This document shows, one piece after another, positions 36,991 to 45,495 of a stretch of DNA of 64,000 bases (within the stretch, counting starts at the first letter, position 1; each line of letters starts with the position of its first letter). The stretch lies in contig JAKFUG010000003.1 in assembly GCA_021732785.1 (NCBI GenBank), positions 124,001-188,000 on the forward strand, read 5' to 3'. This stretch comes from Planctomycetaceae bacterium. GTDB lineage: Bacteria; Planctomycetota; Planctomycetia; Planctomycetales; Planctomycetaceae. Both the position numbers and the translations under genes were made by a program. The notes beneath the pieces were generated by a model. It was not told the origin of the DNA and did not search any database. It saw only the letters and a list, made by a program, of their open reading frames with translations.

Positions 36991-39891
36991 TTATTTCGCC
37001 GTCGAGGCCCATAAGCTTGTCTTCGACAACTTGTTCGACTTCAACACGATGGTCGTCGTGTCAGCAGCACGGATTGCCGCCGGGCGGGCCCCGACGACAT
37101 CGCGCAGAAAGACCGTGACCGTTGCCGCGCCGGACTTCGCCGGGTTGCCATTATCAACAACGCGAATTGTCAGGTTGAATTGCTGGATTTTCTCGAAATC
37201 GAGGGCGGCAGAATTGTTGACCGTGAGCACGCCCGTGGCGGGATCGATCGCAAACGCATTGTTCTTGTTACCCGCCACGATGGAGAACGTCCTGGTTTGT
37301 CCGGGGTCCTGATCGGTTGCCTGAACCGTGCCGATGAAAGCCCCATTCGGAGTGTTCTCCTTGATGGAGAAGGACTTTGGAATCACGACGGGAGCATCGT
37401 TCTCGTCACGGAGAAAGATCGTGACGATTCCTGCAGTCGCTTTCGCAGGGGTGCCGTTATCCGTCACTTTGACGGTCAGATTGAATTGAGGCCGCGACTC
37501 GAAATCGAGGGTGGCGGAATTATTGACTGTGAGTACGCCGGTGTTCGGATCAATTGCGAAAGCATTGTTCTGGTTCCCCGCGACGATGGCGTAGGTACGG
37601 GTTTGACCGGCGTCGACGTCGTAGCTCTTCACCGTGCCGATAAAGGCCCCGTTGGTACTGTTCTCCCCAATCAGAAACGGTTTGGCCAACAGCACGGGGG
37701 CATCGTTTTCATCGCGCAGAAAAACCGTCGATACGGCCGATGCGGCTTTCGCCGGGTTGCAATTGTCGACCACCCGAATCGTCAGCGGAAATTGCTGAAC
37801 GCTTTCAAAGTTGAGCGCCTTGGTGTTGTTCACCGTCAGCACGCCAGTGTTCGGATCGATCGCGAAGGCGTTGTTCTGGTTACCGGCAATGATGGAAAAC
37901 GTGTGGGATTGACCCACATCCTGGTCGGTGGCCTTGATCGTGCCGATGAAGGCTCCGTTCGCGCTGTTTTCACCGATGAGGAAGTCCTTGACGATGATTT
38001 TCGGGGGATCGTTTTCATCGCGCAGGAAGACCGTGACCGCGGCCGAACCGGCTTTCGAGGGAGTGCCATTGTCGGTCGCAGTCACCGAGAGGTTGAACTG
38101 GGTGATTTTCTCGAAGTCGAGTGCGGCCGACGTCTTGACGGTCAACACACCGGTGTTCGGATCGATGGCAAAGGCGTCGTTCGTATTTCCGGCAGTGATG
38201 GTAAATGTGCGCGTCTGACCGGGATCGACGTCCGTCGCCGTGATCGTTCCGATGAACGCCCCGTTGACGCTGTTCTCGCCGATGAGGAAGTTCTGCGGCT
38301 TCACCACGGGAGCGGCGTTCGTATTTAGCGGCTCGGGGGCAAACGGACTGCCGGCGAAACTGCTGTCGACCGCTTGCACCGACCAGAAGTAATTCGTACC
38401 GGGCTTCAATCCGGTGAGCGTCAAACTCGTCCCCTGGATTGGTCCGGCGGCGGACAGACGGCGCAGCCCGCTGGTGGTATTCGCCATGGTGGTGAAGACA
38501 TCGCTGCCACCGGGTGTGGTCCCCACGCGCAAGTTGTACGAGAGCCCCGCCGATGGCGTTTTCGTATCGGTTGCTGCGGTCCACGAGAAGGTCTGCGACG
38601 TCGGCGAATTGATGGTGGTCGTCAACCCGGTGGGGGCCGCGGGGGTCGTGTTCGCCATCGCGGCATTGTTGCGATAGAACTTGGTGGCGAAGGAATTCGG
38701 GGCGAACGTCCCCGTCTTCAGCAAGTCCAGATCGCCGTCTCCCTCCAGATCGCCCCAGGCCACTGAACCGTCCTGCGCGGCCGAGAAGCCTCCTTGGAGA
38801 TCGGTGAACGTGCCGCTGCCGTCGTTGCGATAGACCTTGGCGATCGGCGTGTATTGCTGATTGTTCCCGGCGAGCACGATGTCGAGATCGCCGTCGTTGT
38901 CAAAATCGCCCCAGGCTGCAGAACTGAGGATGACAGGATCGAGAGCGGCATTGATATCGGTGAACGCTCCGTTGCCGTCGTTGCGATAGACCTTGGTCGT
39001 CGAGTTGATTTGGAGCGGTCCCGATTTCCCCGTGAGGAGAATATCGAGCTTGCCGTCTGAGTTGTAATCGCCCCAGACCGCCGTCCCGTTTTGAACTCCG
39101 GTGAGTGCCGCGTTGATGTCGGTGAAGGTGCCGCCGCCGTCGTTGCGATAGACCTTGGAAATGCGGTTGGCGGTGTTATCGAGACCGGTGAGCAGGATAT
39201 CGAGATCGCCATCGGTGTCGTAATCGCCCCACGCCACGGAGCCGTACTTCACCCCGGCGAGGGCGGCATTGATGTCCGTGAAGGTCCCACCATCATTGCG
39301 GTAAACCTTGGCAACGTTGACGTCGCCGCCCATCGGGCCTGGGGTGCGGCCGGCGAGGAGGAGATCGAGATCGCCGTCGTTGTCGGCATCGCCCCAGGCG
39401 AGGGAATTCGGGCTGTCAACATTCGTGATGGCGGCGTGGGTGTCGGTGAAAGTCCCGCCGCCGTCATTGCGGTAGATTTTAGAAACGGGGCCCGTCGCAC
39501 CAAAGCCACTGACGGCGAGATCGAGCTTGCCGTCGTTGTTGAAATCCCCCCACGCCACCGAACCGTAAAAGACGGCGGGAAGACCGGCGTTGATGTTGGT
39601 AAACGTTCCGCCGTCGTTCCGAAAAATACTCGCGGTCGACAAGCCACCTTTGCTGCTTCCGGTGGCCACCACGTCGAGATCACCGTCGCTATCGTAGTCT
39701 CCCCACGCCACGGCACTCGCCGTGAGATCGGGCAGGCCGAGCGGTCCGATGTCGGTGAATTCCCCGGCAAGCAGCACTCGCATTTCCAGCGGTTCCAACC
39801 GCGGGAGACACCTCAGACCACGGACGGGCGATTTGCGTTGTGGAAGTAATTGCCGCTTCAAATTCGACAGGACGGTTCGGACGAGGCCCAT
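36991..39891 (-). CDS. Large secreted FG-GAP / fibronectin / cadherin-repeat protein with LEPR-XLL-type motif
   Basis: 966 residues. No ordinary signal peptide; instead the basic N terminus ends in RLEPLEMRVLLAGEF, the LEPR-XLL-like motif that marks many giant planctomycete surface proteins. Seven FG-GAP/VCBS-like repeats follow (about 50-410), each with a calcium-type loop such as WGDYDSDGDLDVV or WGDFNNDGKLDLA. A fibronectin-III-like domain (about 415-520, LTTTINSPTSQTFSW) precedes four nearly identical cadherin-like repeats (about 525-935: GENS.NGAFIGT, NNAFAIDPNTGVLTVNN, VFLRDENDAP). It probably acts outside the cell in adhesion or as a lectin-like propeller (inference). The repeat DNA is so regular that the antisense strand shows long open frames, which are not genes. 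Confidence 0.85.
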   Translation of the reverse strand: MGLVRTVLSNLKRQLLPQRKSPVRGLRCLPRLEPLEMRVLLAGEFTDIGPLGLPDLTASAVAWGDYDSDGDLDVVATGSSKGGLSTASIFRNDGGTFTNINAGLPAVFYGSVAWGDFNNDGKLDLAVSGFGATGPVSKIYRNDGGGTFTDTHAAITNVDSPNSLAWGDADNDGDLDLLLAGRTPGPMGGDVNVAKVYRNDGGTFTDINAALAGVKYGSVAWGDYDTDGDLDILLTGLDNTANRISKVYRNDGGGTFTDINAALTGVQNGTAVWGDYNSDGKLDILLTGKSGPLQINSTTKVYRNDGNGAFTDINAALDPVILSSAAWGDFDNDGDLDIVLAGNNQQYTPIAKVYRNDGSGTFTDLQGGFSAAQDGSVAWGDLEGDGDLDLLKTGTFAPNSFATKFYRNNAAMANTTPAAPTGLTTTINSPTSQTFSWTAATDTKTPSAGLSYNLRVGTTPGGSDVFTTMANTTSGLRRLSAAGPIQGTSLTLTGLKPGTNYFWSVQAVDSSFAGSPFAPEPLNTNAAPVVKPQNFLIGENSVNGAFIGTITATDVDPGQTRTFTITAGNTNDAFAIDPNTGVLTVKTSAALDFEKITQFNLSVTATDNGTPSKAGSAAVTVFLRDENDPPKIIVKDFLIGENSANGAFIGTIKATDQDVGQSHTFSIIAGNQNNAFAIDPNTGVLTVNNTKALNFESVQQFPLTIRVVDNCNPAKAASAVSTVFLRDENDAPVLLAKPFLIGENSTNGAFIGTVKSYDVDAGQTRTYAIVAGNQNNAFAIDPNTGVLTVNNSATLDFESRPQFNLTVKVTDNGTPAKATAGIVTIFLRDENDAPVVIPKSFSIKENTPNGAFIGTVQATDQDPGQTRTFSIVAGNKNNAFAIDPATGVLTVNNSAALDFEKIQQFNLTIRVVDNGNPAKSGAATVTVFLRDVVGARPAAIRAADTTTIVLKSNKLSKTSLWASTAK

Positions 39892-42228: not shown

Positions 42229-43953
42229 CTACGGCGTCTTCGCGGCCGCGGGAATGGCACGCCATTCCCGCAGGTTCTGGCCGAGTTCCAACTGGAAGAG
42301 TTGTTCTTTTTCGCGCAGCCGAATCAGGCGCGGTTCGATGGCTTCCACGATGGCATGGATGTCTGCCACATCGAGTTTATCACCAACGCGGACGACAGTC
42401 TTTTTGTTGAGCAGACGATCAAAAAACCATGCCTGGAGTTCACTGTTTTCCGCCACTATGCCCACGAGGTAGGTAAAGACCGCGTGATCATCTTCGAGTT
42501 TGATTTTCACATTGGCTGTCGCCGTTTGCGGAGGCGTGCCGGTGTCGGTGATCGTCACGGTGACCGGGAACTCACCGGGGAGCAGTGGTTCGTTTGGTGT
42601 CCATTCCAGCCGGCTCTCTTTCGCGTTGACGGTCAAGCCTTCCGGGGCACCGGTCAGTTTGAACGTGAGTTTTGCAATGTCGGTTTCGGGGTCGCTCAAT
42701 TTCAACGGCAGGGTCCACGGCCGTCCCAAAACGGCGACGGGAACAGTGTCGATGCTTAATGTCGGCGGGAGATTCGGGGCGCGCACTTCAATGGCGAGAG
42801 TGGCGACGATCTTTCCCTGGTCCGCGGAAGGGTGGCTGACTTCGACTTTGACCGGGATCTTTCCCAGCGGAAATTCCTCGCCCGGCTTCCATGAGAATTT
42901 GCCCGTGGCGGCATCGAGCTTCATGTCTTTCGGAGCACCGGGAAGCAGATGAAACGTGGGCTTGCCGAGTTCCGGGTCGAAGTTCGAGGGGGACAGGGTG
43001 TAATCGAAAGCACTCCCGCGCGTGGCGACCCGCTCCAGCGATGTCGGCAGTTCCAGGCGATAGGGAATCGGCGGACGGGGCTTGATGAACACGTTCGCTT
43101 TGAGATAAGCGAGAAACTGTTCCGGCGTTTCCTTCGCGGCGTCGGGATGAATCGGCATCGCTTCGGCGACGGTGCCCACCGGATGGGCGGTCGCCGGCGT
43201 TTGACCATAGCCGCGCGTCACGGTGGCCGATGTTCCTTTCAATGCGGTGACGTTCACATATTCGGCGTCGAGTCGCAACACGAACGGAGCCGTGCGCGGG
43301 AACCCTTCTGCCGGCTTGTCGAGTTCGAGTACCGCGGTGTCGGCATCGGCCGCAGCGGTGAGCGTTGTCTGTGGGAACAGTGTTTTGCGTTTCGGACCCT
43401 CTTTCAGCGACAGGGCTTCGGCAACCAGCACGACGCGCAGTTGCGGGTCTCCTTCGGATTCGTAGCTCTTCACTTCCAGTTTGCTCACGCGGTGCATCAA
43501 ACCGGTGCGGCGAAACTGGTACAGAAAGAACGCCAACTGACTGAAGCGGGCTTCCCCTTCCACGGAGACCGGGATGTTGGCGTAAACATCTTTGGGGGAT
43601 GTCCCCGGATTGAGCGGCTTGACGATCACGTCCTGCCAGCCGGACACCGTCGCCAGTTGCGTCAACCAGTCCTGATACAACTGCTGCCCGAAGGTGGACG
43701 TCGGCCGCGCGCGCTTGTCGGTGGTCGGATCGGGTGGCAACCCGCGCGACTTCCAGTCCGCCAGTTCACGCTGGGCTCTCAGCACTTCGAGTTCTTCGTC
43801 GGACTTCTTCTGAACGACCTCTTTCAGGTCGGCGATTTGTTCGTACCGCGCAAGGAACGGACCGAACACCCACGCCTTACCGGGACCGGCGGCGATATAC
43901 AGCACGCCGGCCACAGCGAAGCCAATCAGCAGATATTTTTCGCGAGATTGCAT
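42229..43953 (-). CDS. Putative PilO-PilP fusion with Ig-like insert
   Basis: 574 residues. One membrane helix (7-27) then a coiled coil (YEQIADLKEVVQKKSDEELEVL) and an alpha/beta domain (about 85-200, VSVEGEARFSQLAFFLYQFRRTG) typical of PilO, the periplasmic alignment protein of type IV pilus/type II secretion machines. Two Ig-like domains follow (about 300-400 and 400-490, ending IKLEDDHAVF). The last 80 residues (YLVGIVAENSELQAWFF, then RVGDKLDVADIHAIVEAIEPRLIRL) have the layout of PilP, the small beta lipoprotein that binds PilN/PilO. PilO is clearly suggested; PilP is moderate. The gene follows the PilM/PilN-like gene after 24 bases. Confidence 0.6.
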   Translation of the reverse strand: MQSREKYLLIGFAVAGVLYIAAGPGKAWVFGPFLARYEQIADLKEVVQKKSDEELEVLRAQRELADWKSRGLPPDPTTDKRARPTSTFGQQLYQDWLTQLATVSGWQDVIVKPLNPGTSPKDVYANIPVSVEGEARFSQLAFFLYQFRRTGLMHRVSKLEVKSYESEGDPQLRVVLVAEALSLKEGPKRKTLFPQTTLTAAADADTAVLELDKPAEGFPRTAPFVLRLDAEYVNVTALKGTSATVTRGYGQTPATAHPVGTVAEAMPIHPDAAKETPEQFLAYLKANVFIKPRPPIPYRLELPTSLERVATRGSAFDYTLSPSNFDPELGKPTFHLLPGAPKDMKLDAATGKFSWKPGEEFPLGKIPVKVEVSHPSADQGKIVATLAIEVRAPNLPPTLSIDTVPVAVLGRPWTLPLKLSDPETDIAKLTFKLTGAPEGLTVNAKESRLEWTPNEPLLPGEFPVTVTITDTGTPPQTATANVKIKLEDDHAVFTYLVGIVAENSELQAWFFDRLLNKKTVVRVGDKLDVADIHAIVEAIEPRLIRLREKEQLFQLELGQNLREWRAIPAAAKTP

Positions 43954-43977
43954 GCAACGAACCGTTGAGGGAGGCGA

Positions 43978-45495
43978 TCAGTTCTTCTTGGCAGCCGGTG
44001 CGGGCGTTGCCGGGGTTTTCGCGGCGACCGCGGGTTTGGGCACAGGTCGCGGCGCTCGCCGTTGAACATCGAGCACCACCTGCTTGGGATACTGGTCATC
44101 GCGGCTGTTGAGCACCGGCCGCGGGAATGACACGAAATACGGTTGATCGGCAATGTTCGCTTTGAACTCCGAAACCTGCTGCTCGGTTTTCGCCGCACCC
44201 GTGGCGGTGAGCCGTCCCAGGACATCGCCGCCGGTGGTGGCTTGATACAGAAAATCGGTGAAGTACGGCCGCTCGTAAGCGCCGGGCATCAACGATTCCA
44301 GCTTGGCGATCTGCGCGAGTTGGTCGATGTTGCGTTCATTCCACGCACCGACGATCTTCGCTTGTTCCATCGTGGGTTTGGCGGCATTGACGAACTGATT
44401 GAGCCGTGTTTGTTCGGCTTTCAACCGGGCGATTTCCCGATCGAGTGACGCCAGCCACGACACCCAGATCCCGCCCACGACGAACAGCACGAACAACGCA
44501 CTTGCTGACGCAACCGCATAGATCAGCTTCCGCGGATCCCGTACCGGCGGCGGTTGTCGCGGATGGATGAAGTCGATGGCACACGGCGCGGATCGACCGA
44601 TGAGCGTGGACTGGCCAAACAGCAACGCCCGATCGGCCGGGAGCGCTTTCATCGGCTCCGGCACCACCCAATCCGCAAGCCGGTCGGTCGGGTCGACGCA
44701 TTCACAGGGACAGTTGAGCCGTTCCGATAACGCCGCCGCGAAGGTTTCATTGCTGCCGATGAGCCAGACACGCTCGACCTTCATTTCGGGCCGCAGCCGC
44801 TGGGCTGCCACCAGCGTGCGGCTGATTTCGCTCAGCACGATCGCGAGCGGATCGCCATGCGATTCATCGAACATTCGCGCGGCGTGCGCATAGTTGAGGT
44901 AATCGTTTTCCACGACCGCCAGTTCGACACGGCCGGGACCAAACGCGACGGCCATGGTGGTGCCATCGCCCAGTCCGCGCTTACGGGTGATCGCCGTGGT
45001 CCATGCCGCGAGGGCCGACGAACTGAGCGAGACGCCGGCCAGTTCGCGGTCGGCCGCCGTGAGCAGAGCCGTGAGCATCGCCGTGGTCGTCTTGGGCAGT
45101 GTGACGGCAAGGACATCGCGCCCGGGGCGACTGGTGATCGGCGAGAGGGGCAGAAAATCGAGATGGACACTTTCCAGGCTGACAGATGAGCGCGTGGACG
45201 TCTGCAGGCGGACGATGTCCGGCAATTCTTCATCGGGAATGGCGGGGAGTTCGAGATGCCGCAGAATCACATCTTCCCGCGGCATCATCAGCCAGACGGA
45301 CTTCGCGGTGAAACCGGCGGCCTGCCATTGATTGCGGAGCCACTCCCCGGCGGCTTTGGGGTTCTGGCTGGGCACCATTCCTTCGGGAAAGACGCCCGTC
45401 CACCCGCCGGTGAGCCGCGCGGACCCGCCGTGGGCGTCTGCCTGACAAGCCGACACATGCTGGCGGTCCCAGCAGACGATCAGAAACTCGGGCAT
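43978..45495 (-). CDS. PilM-PilN fusion protein (type IV pilus/type II secretion-like)
   Basis: 505 residues from ATG 45495 (a GTG three codons earlier is also possible). Residues 1-300 look like PilM: actin-like ATPase fold with SVWLMMPREDVILRHLELP, DVLAVTLPKTTTAMLTALL and a C-terminal subdomain EMKVERVWLIGSNETFAAAL. A single helix (about 325-350) leads to a coiled coil (LDREIARLKAEQTRLNQF) and a PilN-like ferredoxin domain (about 390-480). In pili, PilM is cytoplasmic and binds the N-terminal tail of membrane-bound PilN; here the two are one chain. The downstream gene looks like PilO-PilP. I see no PilQ, PilB or pilin gene in the window. Confidence 0.7.
   Translation of the reverse strand: MPEFLIVCWDRQHVSACQADAHGGSARLTGGWTGVFPEGMVPSQNPKAAGEWLRNQWQAAGFTAKSVWLMMPREDVILRHLELPAIPDEELPDIVRLQTSTRSSVSLESVHLDFLPLSPITSRPGRDVLAVTLPKTTTAMLTALLTAADRELAGVSLSSSALAAWTTAITRKRGLGDGTTMAVAFGPGRVELAVVENDYLNYAHAARMFDESHGDPLAIVLSEISRTLVAAQRLRPEMKVERVWLIGSNETFAAALSERLNCPCECVDPTDRLADWVVPEPMKALPADRALLFGQSTLIGRSAPCAIDFIHPRQPPPVRDPRKLIYAVASASALFVLFVVGGIWVSWLASLDREIARLKAEQTRLNQFVNAAKPTMEQAKIVGAWNERNIDQLAQIAKLESLMPGAYERPYFTDFLYQATTGGDVLGRLTATGAAKTEQQVSEFKANIADQPYFVSFPRPVLNSRDDQYPKQVVLDVQRRAPRPVPKPAVAAKTPATPAPAAKKN

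Follow-up and report, generated by a model that had tools for sequence, protein, structure and literature searches.

Two adjacent genes on the minus strand of the window, a 64,000-nt stretch of DNA from a bacterium of the family Planctomycetaceae, very probably encode the inner-membrane platform of a type II secretion system (T2SS). P1 (nt 43978–45495, 505 residues) joins a PilM-like part, one membrane helix and a PilN-like part, and is assigned as GspL. P2 (nt 42229–43953, 574 residues) is assigned as GspM fused through Ig-like spacers to a domain of the GspC-HR/PilP type. Both reading frames are intact, with a gap of 24 bp between them, and an ORF check confirmed the start sites given in the original prediction. 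The assignment follows from the domain content, the T2SS operon that surrounds the pair in relatives, the complete though dispersed T2SS gene set in this genome, and the presence of a separate type IV pilus (T4P) locus. The pair had been proposed to be the core of an unusual envelope machine or pilus; the envelope machine stands, whereas the operon context and the separate T4P locus speak against the pilus.

The AlphaFold2 model of P1 has a mean pLDDT of 86, and domain boundaries in both proteins were taken from models and alignments. Residues 1–318 (nt 44542–45495, minus strand) form an actin-like PilM/GspL cytoplasmic domain, recognized by Foldseek, in which a motif search found no DxG[ST] phosphate motif. 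Residues 319–390 (nt 44326–44541, minus strand) comprise the membrane helix and a coiled coil, modelled as one helix from 321 to 387. Residues 391–482 (nt 44050–44325, minus strand) form a ferredoxin-like PilN/GspL periplasmic domain, assigned from the model and from weak profile matches to HofN and to the genome's own T4P PilN. Apart from the weak PilN match, profile comparison with single E. coli Gsp and Hof sequences was uninformative. The Pfam family PilM_2 matched P1 with an E value of 1.4e-5, just under the curated cut-off, and a profile of P1 against the PDB retrieved PilM (E 2e-12). Foldseek with the P1 model retrieved PilM 5eoy (E 6e-20) and the cytoplasmic domain of the GspL protein EpsL, 1yf5 (E 8e-10). 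The predicted union of an actin-like PilM part with a PilN-like part is borne out.

In the T2SS a single protein, GspL, normally combines the PilM and PilN parts. Therefore the architecture of P1 is ordinary, and of the two fusions described in the original prediction only P2, with its Ig inserts, is unusual. Like EpsL and PulL, P1 holds an actin-like cytoplasmic domain, a membrane helix and a ferredoxin-like periplasmic domain in a single chain, lacks the nucleotide motif, and is encoded after gspK. The DxG[ST] motif is missing in all 34 members of the P1 family, whereas the T4P PilM of this genome contains it; a missing nucleotide motif is expected for GspL. Unlike EpsL and PulL, P1 has a cytoplasmic domain closer to PilM in sequence and by Foldseek. 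The closest solved and HMM relatives of P1 are PilM, not GspL, and the window's P1 has no T2SSL match in Pfam. Across the homologues, the curated GspL models GspL_C (E 1.9e-4) and T2SSL (E 0.01) each matched a single protein.

The P2 model has a mean pLDDT of 87. Residues 1–86 (nt 43696–43953, minus strand, as are all P2 domains) contain a membrane helix and coiled coil (model helix 3–70), followed by a ferredoxin-like GspM/PilO domain at residues 87–190 (nt 43384–43695), recognized from profile matches and from the model, where the fold spans 87–183. A small beta domain at about 191–275 (nt 43129–43383; model and alignment) is additional to the regions predicted originally. Two Ig-like domains, at about 299–392 (nt 42778–43059) and about 396–487 (nt 42493–42768), are supported by Pfam, model and alignment; the second is of the He_PIG family, which matches P2 with an E value of 5.8e-13. 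Consensus search with the PilO-like part gave T2SSM_b (E 0.001) and PilO (E 0.016), its best PDB profile match was PilO (E 0.0043), and comparison with the genome's own T4P PilO gave a p value of 5e-12. The PilO-like region and the two Ig-like regions of the original prediction were therefore recovered, and P2 has the membrane helix and ferredoxin-like domain of a GspM protein.

The C-terminal residues, about 488–563 (nt 42265–42492), form an all-beta domain, modelled at 490–556, that is of the GspC-HR/PilP type by fold class and position, and weak by sequence. Among 177,635 PDB sequences, GspC HR structures appeared as low-ranking matches with E values of 0.73 and 1.7. The consensus of the domain matched neither GspC (T2SSC) nor PilP in Pfam, and no match was obtained with E. 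coli GspC or HofP. Foldseek with the whole P2 model returned nothing on this domain, the list being swamped by cadherin and Ig matches. Fold class, position and the two PDB matches weakly suggest an HR domain, the part of GspC that binds N0 of GspD; the PilP-like C-terminus proposed earlier is thus compatible with the model, with weak support from sequence. In the fetched homologues the domain is fused to the GspM part rather than being a separate inner-membrane GspC, and no separate GspC was seen in the operon of the relatives.

Within the 64,000 nt of the window, no pilin motif was found, and no T2SS homologues besides P1 and P2. Near the pair, nt 36991–39891 encode a 966-residue protein that carries FG-GAP repeats as well as four cadherin domains, possibly an exported surface protein. 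The earlier statement that the pair stands alone holds for the window but not for the genome, nor for relatives, in which the pair lies inside a T2SS operon. The genes for protein X and GspE, F, G, H and I are on contig C38, those for GspJ and K on C80, P1–P2 on C1, and GspD with a gene in the lipoprotein position on C65. As the X-E-F-G-H-I group lies at the end of C38 and J-K at the start of C80, the contig break appears to be inside an operon. The contig ends (L097:1–170 and L205:1–280) carry a glycine-rich, G+C-rich stretch around gspI/gspJ.

The ATPase and secretin genes sought elsewhere in the genome were thus found. GspE on C38 is 83% identical to the GspE of the sister genome, and its best model is type_II_gspE (611.6 against a cut-off of 630). 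GspE, F, G and K all score best against type II models of NCBIfam, just or well under the curated cut-offs. In Pfam, GspG matches T2SSG (E 5.8e-13), GspK matches T2SSK_1st above its cut-off (E 2.1e-17), and GspJ has a weaker match (E 2.2e-4). The genome therefore encodes the major pseudopilin GspG and minor pseudopilins, GspK among them, together with GspE, GspF and prepilin peptidase, the A24 family having seven matches. The secretin on C65 is of the GspD type: it scores 399.4 bits with type_II_gspD (TIGR02517), passing the cut-off of 351.35, and 204.9 with the PilQ model, under the PilQ cut-off. Because the genes lie on separate contigs, that they act together is inferred from their copy number and from the relatives.

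GspD (L068:6835–10956) has 1373 residues and six Secretin_N domains, which makes it about double the size of E. coli GspD, a protein of 650 residues. Directly after gspD is a gene for a 429-residue protein (L068:10946–12235), conserved there in relatives and without a Pfam family. Protein X (L205:5377–9045, minus strand of C38) has 1222 residues and six Secretin_N domains, with no secretin pore domain. In most genomes of the family its gene immediately precedes gspE; it was not seen beside gspE in two Pirellulales-type loci.

Contig C7 (L073) harbors a T4P locus in which PilM, PilN and PilO are separate, unfused proteins, accompanied by a PilP-position gene and PilQ; a PilB-type ATPase and an F/PilC-type protein are encoded beside them. 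Its PilM has an intact GVDIGSQSIK motif; the PilP-position gene gave no PilP match. This locus bears on whether P1 and P2 might instead be a T4P core, made of PilM-PilN and PilO-PilP fusions and serving pilin and secretin genes elsewhere. P1 is indeed closer to PilM than to GspL in sequence and fold, and a PilO-PilP fusion is known in the T4P of Pseudomonas putida (PMC3169554). However, the domain set homologous to the pair is encoded by four genes in T4P, and that arrangement, with PilB and PilQ, is found separately on C7; P1 lacks the ATP motif of PilM; and the neighbors of the pair in relatives are GspG, GspJ, GspK and a secretin typed as GspD. The operon context largely refutes the T4P core, which is highly unlikely.

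The relatives were surveyed in 101 genomes of the family Planctomycetaceae. P1 is present in 93 and a P2 match in 95 of the 101, a few of the latter Ig-only, and the two genes are adjacent in 54 fetched loci (some genomes counted twice). The pairing is beyond chance, as these counts and the adjacency demonstrate; co-occurrence in other genomes, set beforehand as a test of the pair, is observed. GspK is present in 98 of the 101, and in G052, listed as 100% complete, P1, GspK and the P2 core are all missing together. The gene order in most fetched loci is X-gspE-F-G-H-I-J-K-P1-P2-gspD-lipoprotein-position gene, with Pfam matches to T2SSE, T2SSF, T2SSG, T2SSJ, T2SSK_1st and Secretin. The gspK gene directly precedes P1 in 54 loci; in 25 others, some of them from Schlesneria-type genomes, it does not (some genomes twice). 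In L127, L131, L187 and L189 the operon is interrupted elsewhere: the gene that comes after gspK and gspL encodes about 340–360 residues, and no P2 lies within the locus. A contig search was made with GspK as query, P1 alone giving no match there and the P2 alignment offering no conserved stretch usable as a query. The named holders of GspK of this system include Planctomycetaceae, Gimesia, Schlesneria, Planctomicrobium, Fuerstiella and Pirellulales.

While relatives encode the GspL/GspM/GspC platform with the other T2SS genes, the window's genome has the system dispersed over four contigs, and in sister genomes too the pair is apart from the other T2SS genes. Such separation could mark a decayed or displaced T2SS fragment that no longer works with the rest. 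This is scarcely credible: both reading frames are intact, every other T2SS gene is present in the genome, and the separated pair stays adjacent in G025, G001, G095 and G034 at 32–42% identity to P1/P2. Moreover, the T2SS of Legionella is also scattered, over five loci (PMC4793230).

The P2 homologues, about 55 with some genomes represented twice, have constant ends and a variable middle. Proteins with no insert have 292–350 residues, those with one Ig domain 393–401, those with the beta domain and one Ig domain 465–559, and those with two beta and two Ig domains 632–637; most homologues have the beta domain and two Ig domains. The small beta domain is single in the window's P2, doubled in Gimesia-type proteins and missing from short homologues. 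Insert-free P2 characterizes whole lineages. The genome G064 has an Ig-bearing system and a second, paralogous T2SS operon (L076, contig C128) whose P2 is 292 residues without Ig. In a sample of the phylum, strong matches to the N-terminal part of P2 were mostly from the same class, in open frames of about 310–670 residues; many matches in other classes were weak, in frames near 180–230 residues, the size of a separate PilO.

A match between spacer and secretin length was considered and rejected, secretins being 1269–1312 residues with insert-free P2 and 1266–1362 residues with inserts. The insert length does not track the secretin length, so that the spacer role of the insert stays an inference. 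A tie between protein X and the Ig inserts was likewise rejected, X being also present beside insert-free P2 (L078, L110, L153). It is conceivable, if doubtful, that within a T2SS platform the Ig and beta inserts serve not as a spacer but in binding substrate, peptidoglycan or the pore-less, secretin-like X. The variation in insert composition without regard to secretin length, and the company that X keeps with gspE in most of the family, would suit such binding. The occurrence of X where P2 is insert-free argues against it, as does the dispensability of the insert in whole lineages.

With P1 as GspL and P2 as the GspM-GspC-type fusion, a working arrangement can be suggested. The cytoplasmic domain of P1 would hold the GspE ATPase, and P1 and P2 would pair through their ferredoxin-like domains. 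With its Ig-spaced arm, P2 could then reach through the periplasm and bring its C-terminal domain to the secretin's N-terminal end; the Ig block would make this arm longer, the periplasm of planctomycetes being enlarged. The likely role of P2 would be a covalent tether between the inner platform and the double-length secretin of the outer pore. In Klebsiella, PulC uses its HR domain to connect the inner platform with the base of the secretin (PMC6882859); by analogy, P2 would be expected to connect the platform with GspD.

P2 resembles PulM in its membrane helix and ferredoxin-like domain, is encoded between gspL and gspD, and its all-beta C-terminal domain resembles the HR domain of PulC in type, weakly by sequence. 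It differs in that the two parts form a single chain with Ig-like and beta domains inserted. The P. putida T4P protein Q88CU9, reported as a PilO-PilP fusion (PMC3169554), by that description likewise joins GspM/PilO and GspC-HR/PilP parts; P2 differs from it in the T2SS context and the variable Ig spacer. The novelty is thus P2, with GspM and a GspC-type domain in one chain and a changeable Ig spacer, the PilO-PilP fusion itself being already known. A literature search limited to open-licence papers found no description of an Ig-spaced GspM-GspC.

The joining of the GspM and GspC parts in one P2 chain would fix their ratio at 1:1. The natural fusion therefore bears on the platform stoichiometry, for which 1:1 has been argued (PMC3169554) and PulC:PulM measured at 2:1 (PMC6882859). 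The variable Ig chain also provides a natural series for testing the stretch limit of the platform-to-secretin link. Genetic tools exist for Planctopirus limnophila, in which three pilQ-like genes are non-essential (PMC11958385).

Planctomycetes have crateriform structures, press-stud-like connections from outer to inner membrane whose composition is unknown (PMC5394234). That the T2SS with its double-length secretin, pore-less X and extensible GspM-Ig-HR tether is the basis of these structures is an unlikely, speculative extension.

Very few T2SS outside Proteobacteria were found in a published survey (PMC4793230), and a term search of a large superfamily survey gave no mention of planctomycetes (PMC6668835). 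The presence of a T2SS with GspG, GspK and GspD in nearly every sampled genome of the family changes this picture. Judged from its genes, the predicted system would export folded proteins through the outer membrane, and may offer an export route for the enzymes that planctomycetes are predicted to secrete (PMC11131199).
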